Shown here in pieces: positions 3,101 to 9,169 of a DNA stretch of 64,000 nucleotides. The translations under genes were made by a program, and so were the position numbers. The stretch comes from Tepidamorphaceae bacterium (lineage in GTDB: Bacteria > Pseudomonadota > Alphaproteobacteria > Rhizobiales > JAKSCL01). Location: contig JANQPO010000024.1 in NCBI GenBank assembly GCA_028289445.1, positions 1 through 64,000 on the forward strand. Direction: 5' to 3'. How positions within the stretch are numbered: position 1 is the first letter of the stretch; each line of letters opens with the position of its first letter. Below the pieces are notes generated by a model. The model made no database searches and was not told where the DNA came from. It saw nothing but the letters and a program-made list of their open reading frames with translations.

Positions 3101-3550
3101 ACGTTGATAGGCCGCGCGATCGGTGGGCAGAGCAAGCCAATGGACCGGGCTGTCACGCAACACCAGCCTTGCTCCCACGATCAGCTTGGGCAGATGGATC
3201 GTGTCCGGTCGATCAATCTGTTGGGGCGTGCCGACTTCCTGGCGTGAGCATGAATCGACGCGATGTCTGGACCGGACCCGGATCGCTTCCTCGGCCTTGC
3301 GGCGCAGTTCCTTCAATGCCGTATAGGCGCGCACCACTCCCGCCAATGAATTCCAGTCGGTGACGGCAATGGCCTCCAGTCCTATTTCCGCCGCGCGGAT
3401 GACGAGTTCTTCCGGGTGTGAAGCGCCTTTCAAGAAGGTGAAGTTGGAGGTCACGCATAACTCGGCATAGCCCGGTCCGGCCTTGGGACCGGCCGGTAGA
3501 TTGCGATCTGGCGTTTCGGTCTGGCGTCGATCGGGATTCGTCTCGGTCAC
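167..3550 (-). CDS. dnaE2: error-prone DNA polymerase DnaE2 (ImuC)
   Basis: C-family polymerase of the ImuA-ImuB-DnaE2 mutasome, which performs translesion synthesis and damage-induced mutagenesis. The N-terminal PHP domain begins with YAELCVTSNFTFLKGASHPE, and the catalytic palm carries PDIDVDFEHERR with its acidic residues intact. An OB-fold lies near the C-terminus (VCGLVITRQRPGTASGVIF). The frame is open further upstream, but the best start is the GTG at 3550: it overlaps the imuB TGA as GTGA, which implies translational coupling and gives 1127 residues, close to the usual family length. Last gene of the imuA-imuB-dnaE2 operon. DnaE2 rather than DnaE1 is supported by the neighbours and the shorter length. 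Family call very sure; start likely. Confidence 0.95.
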   Translation of the reverse strand: MTETNPDRRQTETPDRNLPAGPKAGPGYAELCVTSNFTFLKGASHPEELVIRAAEIGLEAIAVTDWNSLAGVVRAYTALKELRRKAEEAIRVRSRHRVDSCSRQEVGTPQQIDRPDTIHLPKLIVGARLVLRDSPVHWLALPTDRAAYQRLTRLLTLGKRRAEKGDCHLDRQDVLENGAGMILIALPQGELSETTQDIRAVRRRFPCHVFLGAAPRYDGSDQAHLTACDRLAQKTSAPMVAVGDVLMHRASRRQLADVLTCIREHITIDEIGTRALPNAERRLKGIEDMARLFRDHPAALRRTLEIAARCSFCLSELSYEYPDEIAEGEAPQARLERLTREGLAKRCPNGIPDRYRALAEKELALVEELKFPAYFLTVHDIVAYARSRDILCQGRGSAANSILCWALGITDVSPDQISMVFERFVSKYRGEPPDIDVDFEHERREEVIQHIYETYGRHRAGLCATVIHFRSRAAIREVGKVMGLSQDVTASLSGQIWGMSNGGADPDRIRELGLDLTDRRLAQTIRLIGEIIGFPRHLSQHVGGFVITKGRLDELCPIENAAMEDRTVIEWDKDDIDTLGILKVDVLGLGMLTCVRKAFDLMERYERHPLTIATVPQEDETTYDMLCRADAIGVFQVESRAQMNFLPRMRPRTFYDLVIEVAIVRPGPIQGGMVKPYIKRRQGLEKPEPFGPALEEVTKRTLGVPLFQEQAMQIAVVGAGFTAEEADHLRRSLASFRRMGTIGQFKDKFIQGMLDNGYDPEVAERCFGQIEGFADYGFPESHAAAFAMLAYVSAWLKCHYPAVFACALLNAQPMGFYAPAQIVRDAREHRVEVRPICVNNSAWDNTLERRPDGALALRLGFRQIKGFKEDDADQIVAVRGNGYPDVQVFWLRTQIAPSALERLAEADAFSDLGLSRREALWQVKAIRAQTPLPLFDNPIEGEGIHEPDAKLPAMHLGEEVVEDYVSMRLSLRAHPMELLRSSMPGLTPHAKLPDAPLGRTSVCGLVITRQRPGTASGVIFITLEDETGVSNVVVWPKVFEKFRRQVMGGRLLRVTGYLQREGIVVHLIAQKVEDMSHRLSDLGHPLDGAIGITLPQADDAPRPIQVKSTVRHPREQAKRLFPSRDFH

Positions 3551-5025
3551 GCGAATTCCCCTTGCACGAACCAGCCGGGATGTTGCGGCGTGTGAAACAG
3601 CCATAATCGCCGTCCCTGGCGCGTCTCGACCTGCCAGTAATCGCGCAGACCTGAGTGCCAGTTTCGATCCTGCAGCCACCAGTCGGGCGCAATGCGTTCC
3701 GGCCCCGTGGCGCGCGCGGTGGTCAGCGCCATGCGCCGCCAGCGAAAGCGGGTCGGCGGATGCGGCCCGGTGCCGTCAATCGGCTCGGGCGGGAACAGGC
3801 GCAAGGGGCGGGGACGCGGACTCCCCCATCCTCCTTCCGGTTCGGAGTAAGCGGCGGGCGCGATGATGAAACTGCGTTCCGGGATATGGCTGTCGGCGGG
3901 CAGGAAGCGCTGGATATTCTCCAAACCGATCCGGGTGCCGATCTTGGTAATCAGGTCGTCGAGCCGGTCTTTGTTCTCGGCGGCGACATGGTTGATCTGC
4001 TGGGGCGGGAGCGGCTCGACCTCTATCGCCTCGACACGCAGTTGATCGATGCCGTAACCCGCCTCGACGGTGGAGACTCCACGCTCGAACAGCGACAGGA
4101 TTCGGTCGGGGTCGTGCAGCGCGCGGGCCAGCCGCAACTCGACCTGTTGGCTTGCCATATCGACGCGGCGCAGGGTCAAGAGCAACACGCGGGCGCCTGC
4201 GTTTTGCGTTTGCAGTTTGGCGCAGAGCCGGTCCAGCAGGCGCGCTGCGCCGGCCATCACGTCGTCAACGAGTCCGATCGGTTCGGGCAAGGTCATGCGC
4301 ACGCCATAATGCGCGGGCGGCGCAATCGGCGTGATCTCTTCGGGCTGTCTCCCTAAAGCCTGATCCAACCGCTTGAGCAAATCCGGGCCGAACCGGCGGG
4401 TCAGCGGCGCGCGGGGACGTTTGGCCAGATCGAACACCGTCCGTAGCCCCAGCCGTTGCAGCGCGGTGATGGTATCTTCGTCCAACCGCAATGCCGCAAC
4501 CGGCAAGGCATCAAGGGCCGTAAGCATGTCACCCGGCGCGGCAACTCCCTCGCCATAATGCGCCAGGGCCCAGGCCGCGCCACGCGTATCCGCCACCCCC
4601 AACCGCACCGACAATCCCGCACGAGCGAGCCGCGCGCGTATGTCGGCAAGCATTGCCGCTTCGCCGCCCCACAGATGGGCGGCGCCCGTTATGTCCAGAA
4701 TCAGGCCGTCCCGGCCCTCCAGCCCCACCCAGGGGCAATAGCGCATCGCCCAGCGGTGCAGGACCTGCAAAAAGCGCCTGTCGGCCTGCGGATCGGCGGG
4801 GCGGCTGTGGAGATCGGGGCAAAAGGCACGGGCATCGGCAAACGCCATATCCCGATGCAAACCCTCCCGCTCGGCTTGCGCATTCAGGCAATAAAGCCGC
4901 TCGGCGTTGTTCTGTTTCAATGTGAGTACAAAAGGCGCTTCAATCGGACGCTGTCTCAAAACCCGGTCGCTTGCCAGCCGGGGGAACCACATCGAGACGA
5001 TGCGCCGTGTGATCCCATCGAACAT
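3547..5025 (-). CDS. imuB: ImuB, Y-family-like mutasome subunit
   Basis: 492 residues. Inactive Y-family polymerase relative that bridges DnaE2 to the beta clamp. The N-terminal signature reads RRIVSMWFPRLASDR and a central segment reads GLILDITGAAHLWGGE, both typical of ImuB; the full catalytic acidic set of DinB polymerases is not apparent. The C-terminal extension (RPRPLRLFPPEPIDGTG and after) is the ImuB-specific tail thought to contact DnaE2. The first 86 bases overlap the end of imuA and the stop overlaps the dnaE2 GTG, so the three genes are one transcription unit. A slightly later start is possible, but the residues just after the chosen ATG are family-like. Confidence 0.93.
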   Translation of the reverse strand: MFDGITRRIVSMWFPRLASDRVLRQRPIEAPFVLTLKQNNAERLYCLNAQAEREGLHRDMAFADARAFCPDLHSRPADPQADRRFLQVLHRWAMRYCPWVGLEGRDGLILDITGAAHLWGGEAAMLADIRARLARAGLSVRLGVADTRGAAWALAHYGEGVAAPGDMLTALDALPVAALRLDEDTITALQRLGLRTVFDLAKRPRAPLTRRFGPDLLKRLDQALGRQPEEITPIAPPAHYGVRMTLPEPIGLVDDVMAGAARLLDRLCAKLQTQNAGARVLLLTLRRVDMASQQVELRLARALHDPDRILSLFERGVSTVEAGYGIDQLRVEAIEVEPLPPQQINHVAAENKDRLDDLITKIGTRIGLENIQRFLPADSHIPERSFIIAPAAYSEPEGGWGSPRPRPLRLFPPEPIDGTGPHPPTRFRWRRMALTTARATGPERIAPDWWLQDRNWHSGLRDYWQVETRQGRRLWLFHTPQHPGWFVQGEFA

Positions 5026-5521
5026 TCCAGGCTCCTAATGTTCCTGATTTGTTCTTTTTAAGCGACCATCGTTGCAGAGTCGAGTCGGTTGGGTCGAAAA
5101 CGGGCGTGCAATGCCATCTGGTCTCGACCGCATTGCTTCCCATGTCGTCGGGAATCATAGCCAGGGCCGTCGTTTCGCCGTCCCTTGCGGCCAGTTGCAA
5201 CCGCCGTCCGTCGGTCAATCCCAAGGGTTTGCTCAAATCCATCACGACCAGTGGCGCCGCGCCGGACCGCAGGGCCTCTTCCGCCACCGCCAGCACGTTC
5301 AACTGATCCTTCGCGCGGGCCAGAAGAAATCGACTTGGATCGAAAAATGCGCTGAAACCTGAGGGGTTTACGTGCTCCGCCTTCCAGTCCTCCGTGACCC
5401 AAAGCATCGTGCCGCCGATCTGGGCGCCCCGCGCGAAGGCGAAAAACACGGCACCTGGGCCATAAACTTCATGGGCGCGGCCGGCGCGAAGCGCGCGCAA
5501 GGGCAAGGTCTCATCCGTCAT
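4940..5521 (-). CDS. imuA: ImuA, RecA-like mutasome accessory protein
   Basis: 193 residues; first gene of the mutasome operon. ImuA is a short RecA/SulA-like protein that works with ImuB and DnaE2 at stalled forks. Visible features are the N-terminal GRAHEVYGPGAVFFAFARG segment, a central VVMDLSKPLGLTDGRRLQLA strand-helix unit, and the C-terminal RWDHTAHRLDVVP common in alphaproteobacterial ImuA. No intact Walker A motif is seen, as expected for this family. The ribosome site (GGAG) is close to the ATG. Regulation would be expected through LexA; only a degenerate SOS-like half-site pair is visible upstream. Confidence 0.88.
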   Translation of the reverse strand: MTDETLPLRALRAGRAHEVYGPGAVFFAFARGAQIGGTMLWVTEDWKAEHVNPSGFSAFFDPSRFLLARAKDQLNVLAVAEEALRSGAAPLVVMDLSKPLGLTDGRRLQLAARDGETTALAMIPDDMGSNAVETRWHCTPVFDPTDSTLQRWSLKKNKSGTLGAWNVRWDHTAHRLDVVPPAGKRPGFETASD

Positions 5522-6001
5522 CGCTCCACATTAGCTTAGCAGGGATAGTGGCTCAATTTCAGAACCTGGCATCCTTGGAGGCTCGGATTCCCGAACCCAA
5601 AGAGGTGCAGCACCTTCACAACGTCGATGAACGGATGTTTGAAGCCAAGGCGAATTGGTCAAAGAGCAAGTAGCATCTTCTCTGCTCAGTATGGCGCAAG
5701 CGCGCAGCAGTTGTCCTCGCGTGCTTGAAACTGGTTTAGGGTTTCGCAATGTGGCTGGAGATCGTAGCGGAATTGGCCTGAAATCAGCGGCCTGATTCGG
5801 CATGTGAAGCAGATGTGACCAAATGTGCACGAAGATTGACGGGATGTAAGCCATTGAAAATTATATGTTTCATCGAAAATTAACCATAAATCCTTCAACC
5901 TCAACAACTCTAAGTAGAAGGGGTGCGGGACTTTTTCCGCGAAAGCCACCATATTGCCATCGGAATGCGTTAGAGGGAGTAGCGCACAGGAGGAATTGGT
6001 T
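5522..6001. other. intergenic region without a recognisable gene
   Basis: About 480 bases between imuA (leftward) and a small membrane ORF (rightward). Base composition becomes distinctly AT-richer around 5840-5950 than in flanking genes. Two minus-strand frames stay open for about 110 residues (5531-5854 and 5686-6033) but they overlap each other, have no ribosome site and look like no known family. It probably holds the divergent promoters of imuA and of the 6002 gene. A decayed coding segment cannot be excluded. Confidence 0.5.
5551..5565 (-). promoter_or_regulatory. degenerate SOS-box-like site before imuA
   Basis: Read on the minus strand, GTTCTGAAATTGAGC lies about 30 bases before the imuA start. 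The alphaproteobacterial LexA consensus is GTTC-N7-GTTC: the first half-site is perfect, the second (GAGC) has two mismatches. Position is right, match is weak, so this is a candidate only. Confidence 0.3.
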
Positions 6002-6127
6002 ATGGACCGAACTCCGACAAATGAGCGCCTCAAGGCGTCGCTCCGTATATCGCCAGCCGGCTACCTCATCATCATTTGCATGTTCCTGCTATTCATAGCC
6101 TTACAGTTGGTCATCTTAATCGCTTGA
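6002..6127 (+). CDS. 41-residue single-pass membrane miniprotein
   Basis: Short gene with a strong ribosome site, AGGAGG at 5989-5994, followed seven bases later by the ATG. The product begins MDRTPTNERLKASLRISPAG, a basic, polar cytosolic-type N-terminus, and continues into an uninterrupted hydrophobic segment of about 20 residues rich in I, L, F and V that ends the protein. This fits a small inner-membrane protein with N-in topology. It lies 50 bases upstream of a second membrane-anchored protein on the same strand, so the two may be co-transcribed. No family recognised; the coding call rests on the ribosome site and membrane segment. Confidence 0.6.
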   Translation: MDRTPTNERLKASLRISPAGYLIIICMFLLFIALQLVILIA

Positions 6128-6177
6128 GTATTTCGCGACCGGTGTTCTAGATTTGCTGGATGCAGGGGAGGGGCAGC

Positions 6178-6828
6178 GTGTCCGAGGGTCCAGTAGATCA
6201 AACTAGAACAGCTAACGATGGCCCGATTAGGCATGCGACTTTTAATCTCACTCGTGGAGATTTTTTGGCGATGTTCGGCGCGCTTGCTGCCATCGCGGCA
6301 TTAGCCATTCCAGCCACCGCTGCCTTGATAAATGCTCGCACGACGGAAATGGAAAAAGATGTTGAACTGTTGCGTGGCGAGATTGGATCGGTTCGCGATG
6401 AAATTGGATCACTTCGTCGCGAGATAGATCTGCGCTTTCAGCTCGTGCAGCAAGGATTTGATACGCTTTCTCGCGATGTTGAGAAAGCCATCGATGATGG
6501 CCTGGCGGAGCAATCCAATCTAGTTGCCAAGAGTCTAATCAAGGAAACTGTGGCAGGGAAAGTGTATACTGCATCGGTGGCAAATGCGCCGTGGAGCATC
6601 ATCGACAGCAAAAAGTGGAAGGACGTCTACAAGTCTCTCCAGGACTATCGACTAGTACAGTTCAACGACACAGCGATCCTCGAGATTGATTTCTCCGACA
6701 TACTAGGTCCCAAGGCGATGGCAATCGCACGGATCCATGATCTGGCATTGGAAGACGGCGTCTCGTTTAAGATCATTCACTTTGTTGACGAGGACAAGCT
6801 GAACGACATAGACAACGGCACCCCCTAA
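6178..6828 (+). CDS. membrane-anchored coiled-coil protein, function unknown
   Basis: 216 residues from the GTG at 6178, chosen because a purine-rich GGGGAGGGG precedes it at the right distance; an in-frame ATG at 6160 has no ribosome site. A hydrophobic segment near residues 27-52 (FLAMFGALAAIAALAIPATA) is followed by a heptad-rich coiled coil (about residues 56-105: EMEKDVELLRGEIGSV, then IGSLRREIDLRFQLV) containing a repeated E/R-IGS unit. The C-terminal 100 residues look globular and mixed alpha/beta, with no family I recognise. Codon use is more AT-rich than most neighbours, which may mean acquisition. Possibly works with the 41-residue membrane protein just upstream. Confidence 0.75.
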   Translation: MSEGPVDQTRTANDGPIRHATFNLTRGDFLAMFGALAAIAALAIPATAALINARTTEMEKDVELLRGEIGSVRDEIGSLRREIDLRFQLVQQGFDTLSRDVEKAIDDGLAEQSNLVAKSLIKETVAGKVYTASVANAPWSIIDSKKWKDVYKSLQDYRLVQFNDTAILEIDFSDILGPKAMAIARIHDLALEDGVSFKIIHFVDEDKLNDIDNGTP

Positions 6829-6953
6829 GTGGCTGCAATATATCTGACGCTGCGATGTCACCACTGAGCCGTTTGATGGTAGGCGGCGACTAGAGCGCAT
6901 ACCTCAGTCGTTCTTCGATTGACCACCAAGCAAATGGATTGCACGGTCGATGA

Positions 6954-8000
6954 ATGCGAATTGTGCTCAATCCCTTTCGCCGCTCCGGCCTAGCCTGCGC
7001 AGACCTTGAGGATGTGCCCTATCCCAGCACGTTGTCGGAGAGACCGCTTTGCCTTCTCGACCGCAACCAGCGTGCCCGTGAAACACCGCTGGTCCACGCA
7101 CCGGGGCTGGCAGACGCCTGCGGCGTAGCCGACGTCATCTTGAAGGATGAACGCGACCGTATGGGGCTCGGTAGTTTCAAGGCGCTGGGCGCGGCTTACG
7201 TGATTGCCTGCGATGCGGCCAAGGAAAAGGCGGCTGGCGCGACCTATGTCACGGCGAGCGCCGGCAATCACGGCCTATCGGTCGCGGCCGGCGCATCGGC
7301 GTTCGGCGCGCGCGCCGTGGTCTACCTGTCGGAACAGGTGCCGCAGTCGTTCGCGGACAGGCTGGCATATGAAGGCGCCGAAGTGGTTCGCAGCGGCGCC
7401 ACCTATGAAGAGAGCATGGTTGCTGCCGCATCGGCTGCCGAGCAGGATGGCGCGATCCTTTTGTCGGACAGCTCCTGGCCGGGCTATATCGAACGGCCGT
7501 TCACGCTGATGGAGGGCTATCTCGTCCTCATGGAGGAAGTGTTTGTGCAGCTCCCTGAGCCGCCGACGCATATCCTGCTTCAAGCCGGCGTTGGTGGATT
7601 GGCGGGCGCCGCCGCGGCCATCGTGCGGGTGCACTGGGGCGACGCACCCATGATCATCGTCGTCGAACCGGACGTTGCCCCCGCGCTTGTCGCATCCATC
7701 GAAGCCGGCCGGCCGGTTCACGCCGATGGCCCCGTTTCCGCGATGGGGCGCCTCGATTGCAAGGAACCGTCGCTGATCGCGCTGAAGGGATTGGCGAGAG
7801 ATGCCGACGCGTTTGTCACGATCTCCGAGGAGGAGGGACTGTCCGGAGCTACCTTTTTGACGCAGCACGGCTTCGATACGACGCCTTCGGGCGCGGCCGG
7901 GTTTTCCGCGCTTCTCGCCGCCAAGCCGCATTTCGACAAGCTCAATCTCGGCCCCTCAGCCAGGGTTCTCGCAATCCTTAGCGAAAGCGCACAGGCATGA
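6954..8000 (+). CDS. PLP-dependent lyase, diaminopropionate ammonia-lyase-like
   Basis: 348 residues, fold-type II PLP enzyme. Lys76 in GLGSFKALGAAY is the likely Schiff-base lysine; ASAGNHGLSVAAGA and LLQAGVGGLAGA are the substrate- and phosphate-binding loops; DSSWPGYIERP followed by LMEGYLVLMEE resembles the segment found in 2,3-diaminopropionate ammonia-lyases. That enzyme splits diaminopropionate to pyruvate and ammonia. The protein is shorter than typical members (about 400 residues), so threonine/serine dehydratase-like activity on another amino acid is possible. The stop overlaps the start of the next gene (ATGA), an M24 peptidase, which suggests joint processing of a peptide or N-acylated amino acid. 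Confidence 0.75.
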   Translation: MRIVLNPFRRSGLACADLEDVPYPSTLSERPLCLLDRNQRARETPLVHAPGLADACGVADVILKDERDRMGLGSFKALGAAYVIACDAAKEKAAGATYVTASAGNHGLSVAAGASAFGARAVVYLSEQVPQSFADRLAYEGAEVVRSGATYEESMVAAASAAEQDGAILLSDSSWPGYIERPFTLMEGYLVLMEEVFVQLPEPPTHILLQAGVGGLAGAAAAIVRVHWGDAPMIIVVEPDVAPALVASIEAGRPVHADGPVSAMGRLDCKEPSLIALKGLARDADAFVTISEEEGLSGATFLTQHGFDTTPSGAAGFSALLAAKPHFDKLNLGPSARVLAILSESAQA

Positions 8001-9169
8001 CATCGCCCGCAAGGGGCTTTCCCGCCGATGAATATCGCGACCGGCTGGCGCGGGCGCAGGCGTTGATGGCCGAGGCCGATCTGGGCGCGCTCTTTCTGAC
8101 GACCGAACCCGATATCCGCTATTTCACCGGCTTTTTGACAAGGTTTTGGGAAAGCCCGACCCGGCCGTGGTTCTTGATCGTGCCGGCGAGCGGCGAGCCG
8201 GTGGCGGTCATCCCGTCCATCGGCGCGCACCTGATGGGACAAACCTGGATCGCCGATATTCGCACTTGGCGGTCTCCCGATTACGCCGACGATGGTGTGA
8301 GCCCGGTGGCCACAGCGCTCGCCGAACGTGTCCCGAAAGATGGCCGCATCGGTGTGCCGAGCGGCGCGGAAAGCCACATTCGCATGCCGCTGGAGAGTTG
8401 GGTGAGACTGCAAGCCCTGCTTGGCGCGGATCGTCTGGTGGGCGATTCCGGCATCATGCGGCGCCTACGCTTGGTGAAATCGGATCGCGAGATCGGGAAG
8501 ATCAAAGCGGCCTGTGCGATTGCCGACCGGGCCTTCCAACGGGCGCCGGAGATCGCGGCGGCGGGCACGCCTCTCGACCGGGTGTTCCGCGAATTTCAAG
8601 TGCTTTGCCTTCAAGAGGGCGCCGATTGGGTTGCCTATCTCGCCGGCGGTGCCGGGCCCGGCGGCTATGGTGACGTTATCTCTCCGGCCACCGATGCACC
8701 GCTTCAGCCGGGCGATGTGCTGATGCTCGATACCGGTCTCGTCTGGGACGGCTATTTCTGCGACTTCGACCGCAATTATGCGGTTCCGCCCGTCGCCCAG
8801 GCCATTGAGGATGCCCATGCGCGGCTTCTAGACGCCTCGGACGCCGCATTTGAGATCGCGCGCCCTGGAGCCACGGCAGCCGAGCTGTTTCAAGCGATGG
8901 ATCGGATTGTGAGCGGCGGCGCAGGCGGGTCGCAAGCGGGGCGCTTGGGACACGGGCTGGGGATGCAGTTGACGGAATCGCCGTCGCTTATCCCGGACGA
9001 CCGCACCGTGCTTGAAGCCGGCATGGTGCTCACCCTTGAGCCGGGCATAACGCTCGGACCTGGTCGGACCCTGGTGCATGAGGAGAACATCGCCATCACA
9101 CCGACCGGCGCCACCTATCTTTCCACGCCGGCGCCTCGCCACATGCCAAGGCTTGAAGGCGCATCGTGA
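7997..9169 (+). CDS. M24-family metallopeptidase (Xaa-Pro peptidase-like)
   Basis: 390 residues with an N-terminal creatinase-like domain (TEPDIRYFTGFLTRFWE) and a C-terminal pita-bread domain. The dinuclear metal ligands can be read in order: the two Asp in MLDTGLVWDGYFCDFDRN, His in GHGLGMQLTES, Glu in TLEPGI and Glu in HEENI. No signal peptide, so cytoplasmic. Family members cleave Xaa-Pro peptides or hydrolyse small amidines and N-acyl amino acids (creatinase, ectoine hydrolase DoeA). Translationally coupled to the preceding PLP lyase, so hydrolysis followed by deamination of the released amino acid is plausible but unproven. Confidence 0.88.
   Translation: MTSPARGFPADEYRDRLARAQALMAEADLGALFLTTEPDIRYFTGFLTRFWESPTRPWFLIVPASGEPVAVIPSIGAHLMGQTWIADIRTWRSPDYADDGVSPVATALAERVPKDGRIGVPSGAESHIRMPLESWVRLQALLGADRLVGDSGIMRRLRLVKSDREIGKIKAACAIADRAFQRAPEIAAAGTPLDRVFREFQVLCLQEGADWVAYLAGGAGPGGYGDVISPATDAPLQPGDVLMLDTGLVWDGYFCDFDRNYAVPPVAQAIEDAHARLLDASDAAFEIARPGATAAELFQAMDRIVSGGAGGSQAGRLGHGLGMQLTESPSLIPDDRTVLEAGMVLTLEPGITLGPGRTLVHEENIAITPTGATYLSTPAPRHMPRLEGAS

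Follow-up and report, generated by a model that had tools for sequence, protein, structure and literature searches.

Does the small membrane ORF that precedes a larger membrane-anchored ORF in this Tepidamorphaceae genome form a genuine gene pair with it, and what might the two proteins do together? The window, by which we mean the whole 64,000-nt stretch of DNA that was analysed, carries both ORFs on the same strand with a gap of exactly 50 nt between them (6128-6177); we refer to the smaller as S and to the larger as C (Table 1). Much of what the initial annotation had said of the locus was borne out: coordinates and predicted segments agreed with its layout of a membrane miniprotein followed 50 nt later by a membrane-anchored coiled-coil protein, and the small ORF did have a good ribosome site. 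That S and C look like real orphan ORFs for membrane proteins, on an islet of foreign composition, is well supported. Going further, we favour a reading, to which we assign a probability of about 45%, in which both are real, probably co-transcribed genes on a lineage-restricted, likely acquired islet, with the mechanism proposed below.

Table 1. Coordinates of the ORFs, ribosome-binding sites, islet and predicted RNA hairpin within the window.
Feature	Position	Strand	Remarks
Low-GC islet	5522-6953		Between imuA-like ORF (minus) and PALP gene (plus); GC 0.504
Ribosome-binding site of S, AGGAGG	5988-5993	+	8-nt spacer to ATG; SD match length 6
ORF S, 41 aa	6002-6127	+	ATG 6002, stop 6127, read from sequence
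Predicted RNA hairpin, 7+12 pairs with 4-nt bulge	6143-6210	+	MFE -30.3 kcal/mol
Ribosome-binding site of C, GGAGG	6167-6171	+	6-nt spacer to GTG; SD match length 5
ORF C, 216 aa	6178-6828	+	GTG 6178, stop 6828, read from sequence

The ORF listing gave S as a longer in-frame TTG form from 5954 and started C at ATG 6160, a codon without a ribosome site by the same SD test. S had a short, basic N-terminal stretch and a hydrophobic C-terminal segment (around residues 18-41) that reached the C-terminus, with a 19-residue hydropathy of 3.28. Start codons opening ORFs of 30-60 codons on both strands of the window (n = 1,173, nested starts counted apart) served as a chance test, with thresholds chosen only after S had been seen: six of these starts had an SD match of 6 nt or longer, seven had a 19-residue hydropathy of 2.2 or more, and the two combined at S only (1/1,173). 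Among 1,000 dinucleotide shuffles of the islet, a single one yielded an S-like ORF with both site and membrane segment. GC content by codon position in S was 0.46/0.37/0.68, a weak phase signal (p=0.013), and its codon-usage score was 0.078 in frame versus 0.098 on the minus strand in register. In C the phase was clear, both over the whole ORF (0.60/0.38/0.54, p=1.6e-5) and when only the C-terminal part was taken (0.53/0.32/0.64, p=1.1e-5), and an open stretch of C-like length (at least 225 codons) arose in just seven of 1,000 islet dinucleotide shuffles; the codon-usage score was 0.109 in frame versus 0.108 on the minus strand in register. For S and C alike, the true frame scored highest of the three plus-strand frames. 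On the strength of the chance tests, codon phase and opposite-strand codon scores, C appears well supported as a coding sequence and S moderately so.

This difference leaves some room for an explanation that is possible but that we hold doubtful, in which C is the sole gene and S either arose by chance or serves as a leader that affects translation of C and whose peptide has no function. The weak phase of S, its codon score being no better than that of the opposite strand, the post hoc thresholds of the chance tests and the finding of no S relative above chance all fit such an account. Set against it are the rarity of S in those same tests, with a ribosome site and a membrane segment together at one start and in one shuffle, and the position of the predicted hairpin over the start of C: it begins 15 nt past the S stop, so that a ribosome terminating on S would barely reach it.

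C carried a predicted membrane segment at around residues 28-53 (hydropathy 2.17). From there, its structure model continued as a helix over residues 26-126, predicted as a coiled coil, with a pLDDT of 92-95 across residues 51-100 and a pattern that looked heptad-like by eye. The C-terminal part was modelled as strands and short helices at a pLDDT mostly below 50, and refolding it alone did no better (mean pLDDT 40.6). No usable C-terminal domain came out of the fold models, and in a Foldseek search with the low-confidence model of this part none of the 68 matches at E 10 or below was better than E 2.2.

Both proteins had been called unrecognised, and family collections agreed. Searches with C returned nothing above cut-offs in Pfam (best E 0.078, residues 54-84) or above curated cut-offs in NCBIfam (best E 0.0052, residues 45-125); the archaeal flagella accessory protein FlaC (PF05377) scored 13.8 bits against a gathering threshold of 27.8, over the coiled coil (54-84) only. 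PHROG matches to C (best E 0.036) fell in its membrane and coiled-coil part or just past it, and the best PDB match stood at E 0.43. S belonged to no family in Pfam, PHROGs, PADLOC or NCBIfam, and neither protein met a PADLOC family up to E 1. Plasmids, phages and viral contigs held no relative of C, and plasmids and phages gave only chance-level matches to S. C was also absent from genome contigs in a single-sequence query, which reaches close relatives only, and from all 60 relatives at E 0.001.

Wider searches covered genome sets of the order, class and phylum, which overlap and whose sizes are not additive. With the whole of C, 41 matches besides its own reached E 0.1 in 397 genomes of the order (best 0.0043); all of those listed ended by residue 139 and left the rest of the C-terminal part uncovered. 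Of these frames nine at most were read, and for seven of them Pfam named three flagellins, an RlmN-type radical-SAM protein, ZapA, RmuC and, for L003, a sub-cutoff ABC transporter C-terminal domain; it gave nothing for an eighth (L009). The C-terminal part of C was sought in 385 genomes of the class, where 37 besides its own reached E 0.5; the best (0.0097) was a ribonuclease HII, as by eye was a second member of its genus. Two besides its own reached E 0.05 in 398 genomes of the phylum, one an ankyrin-repeat protein and the other, by eye, an aminotransferase, while the own genome gave one further match (E 0.55). For S, 50 besides its own reached E 1 in the 397 genomes of the order (best 0.018), and at the two loci with small frames that were read the match lay opposite a longer ORF. 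From those read, we judge the matches to S or C in these sets to be due to chance. With no homologue of either found above chance, both look like lineage-restricted orphan genes. The source family has one other genome in the searched set, from another genus, and the absence therefore means that the pair is not shared across the order, rather than that it is proven to be recent. The conservation by which the initial annotation would have judged the pair was not seen, no second copy having been found down to this nearest genome.

On the left of the islet, on the minus strand, lay an imuA-like ORF, an imuB-like ORF with both Pfam IMS domains (3547-5025) and then an ORF with DNA polymerase III alpha domains in the place of dnaE2. 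The imuA-like ORF (4940-5521, minus strand) scored 25.7 bits to the NCBIfam ImuA model, whose cut-off is 150, and overlapped the start of the imuB-like ORF by 86 bases; being so far under the cut-off and overlapping in this way, it is either a divergent form or an ORF whose end is not native. A GTTC-N7-GTTC pattern, the LexA-box form for Alphaproteobacteria according to PMC3323433, was situated at 5040-5054, inside the imuA-like ORF and 14 nt upstream of the ATG (5025) of the imuB-like ORF; its frequency in the window was not above chance (two found versus 2.28 expected). To the right, on the plus strand, followed a PALP enzyme (PF00291) and an M24 peptidase (PF00557), together at 6954-9169. 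The models that the PALP enzyme came closest to were those of diaminopropionate ammonia-lyase, at scores below cut-off. A scan with its protein sequence led to 22 named loci, the majority bearing Rhodobacteraceae names, and in 18 of the 22 the M24 peptidase came directly after PALP; one of the remaining four (L090) ends within the gene. Neither S nor C occurred at any of the 22 loci at E 0.001, and 17 loci around imuA matches (in 16 other genomes, flank up to 1.5 kb) lacked C and matched S once, by chance (E 0.81). Because it is absent from both sets of loci, the S-C pair does not regularly belong to either neighbouring gene group.

The lower GC content claimed for this DNA was evident: the islet stood at 0.504 versus 0.620 for the whole window (z -5.5 among windows of equal length). 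Among 626 windows of 1,432 nt taken at steps of 100, the six with a GC content of 0.53 or below all began at 5301-5801, and at this length no part of the window is poorer in GC than the islet by more than 0.002. Third-position GC in C was 0.54, whereas the 17 listed ORFs of 400 aa or more ranged from 0.67 to 0.80. Islet DNA had no match in plasmids, and in four of the 60 relatives it had a single match each, of 21-34 nt; the own genome had no second copy of the DNA. Direct repeats of at least 12 nt were absent from 5000-7100, as were tRNA genes from the window. Composition and absence elsewhere suggest that the islet was most likely acquired.

Acquired DNA may also decay, and there is an outside chance that this is what the islet represents, with neither ORF now expressed. 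Low GC and the lack of relatives would suit decay, as would the 480 nt 5' of S, which held no clear gene, and a 41-aa plus-strand ORF with a GTG start at 5548-5673 whose coding-like phase (p=0.006) comes with no Pfam family; this ORF is possibly a remnant of another gene. What argues otherwise is that the frames of S and C are both intact and have ribosome sites, and that an open stretch as long as C was so rare in shuffled islets. Two minus-strand ORFs (5531-5854 and 5686-6033) had no family and phase p values of 0.07 and 0.16.

The initial annotation had further likened the pair to small stress or phage-defence modules, and this analogy gained no support. A small anti-phage or stress module would share with the pair a foreign composition and a membrane location only. 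We consider it highly improbable: PADLOC returned no family, PHROG matches of C were no better than the value given above, other matches were sub-cutoff or of coiled-coil type, phage, plasmid and viral relatives were absent, and no EcfG- or RpoH-type pattern was present in 5501-7000. Two sigma-70-type patterns likewise found no match in that interval, and a promoter-like site upstream at 5836-5864 was not above chance (one found versus 1.1 expected).

Both the GGAGG site and the GTG of C lie within the predicted hairpin. None of 200 shuffles folded as well (z -5.07), though the stretch was chosen after its fold had been seen, and five of 7,992 GC-corrected plus-strand windows of its size folded better. 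It was kept in all four wider contexts, with the outermost pair lost in one; a 121-nt window around it folded ordinarily (z -1.11, 23/200 shuffles). The opening cost at the C start, 21.8 kcal/mol, came third in a set of 31 made up of C and 30 genes from the GC-rich window. No Rfam family was found in 5400-7100, and Rfam on 6120-6240 gave one meaningless match (E 1, 11.1 of 70 bits); one 20-base arm of the hairpin had no match in viral contigs.

From the adjacency of S and C, the strand and membrane location that they share and the predicted fold, we propose how the two proteins might work. C would cross the membrane once, self-assemble by way of its coiled coil and bear a small C-terminal domain, and S, a single-pass membrane miniprotein, would most likely associate with C in the membrane and tune its assembly or stability, while the hairpin over the C start would hold translation of C down. 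Each of these functional steps commands less confidence than the reading as a whole. The sequence work shows the two ORFs with their ribosome sites, the unusual composition, the codon phase of C and that no relatives turned up; membrane segments, coiled coil and hairpin are predictions, whereas acquisition, a common transcript, contact between S and C, control by the hairpin and any cellular role are inferences. We counted in favour of that reading the same strand, the short gap, the ribosome site of each ORF, the uniqueness of S among the starts tested, the codon phase of C, the foreign composition, the absence at PALP loci and in the 60 relatives, and the hairpin. Counted against it were the lack of a second copy that could reveal selection on either protein or a lasting association of the two genes, the weak phase of S, codon scores equally high on the opposite strand, a promoter-like site at chance, the ordinary wider fold, the rank of the opening cost, and structure models that were poor past the helix. 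A bolder version, in which the two make up an undescribed membrane module, with S gating the self-assembly-prone coiled-coil protein C and the hairpin setting their ratio or switching C on in response to a signal, is unlikely.

S and C might also be unrelated neighbours, C being independent and S a stand-alone membrane peptide, for example a type I toxin. Such toxin peptides are short and have one hydrophobic segment. S resembles them in both respects, and adjacency is the sole link between S and C. Nevertheless, no Rfam family was present around the pair, no minus-strand sigma-70-like promoter was listed in 5400-7100 (with a pattern blind to other types of promoter), and the antisense fold over S was ordinary (z 0.75). 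That these searches recognised no antisense RNA or RNA family, and that a larger membrane-protein ORF lies downstream, are points of difference from type I toxins, and we regard this explanation as improbable.

Among other known systems, FtsL-type bitopic coiled-coil proteins (NCBIfam NF049847) share with C a membrane helix that runs into a coiled coil, although the model scored only 14.9 bits (cut-off 50, E 0.015) over residues 34-83; C differs in its additional C-terminal part, and no cell-division neighbour was among the flanking genes scanned. The closest parallel in setting is with orphan genes (ORFans), which are common on low-GC islets. Like these, S and C lack relatives, are foreign in composition, are small and lie between conserved gene groups; unlike them, they stand side by side, both encode predicted membrane proteins, and a strong hairpin is predicted over the start of the second. 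The finding is a plausible new orphan pair of modest interest, which would gain wider importance only if S and C act together or if the hairpin is a switch. If both are translated, the islet would hold a compact orphan miniprotein gene, of a size easily missed by automatic annotation, linked to an orphan membrane-protein gene.
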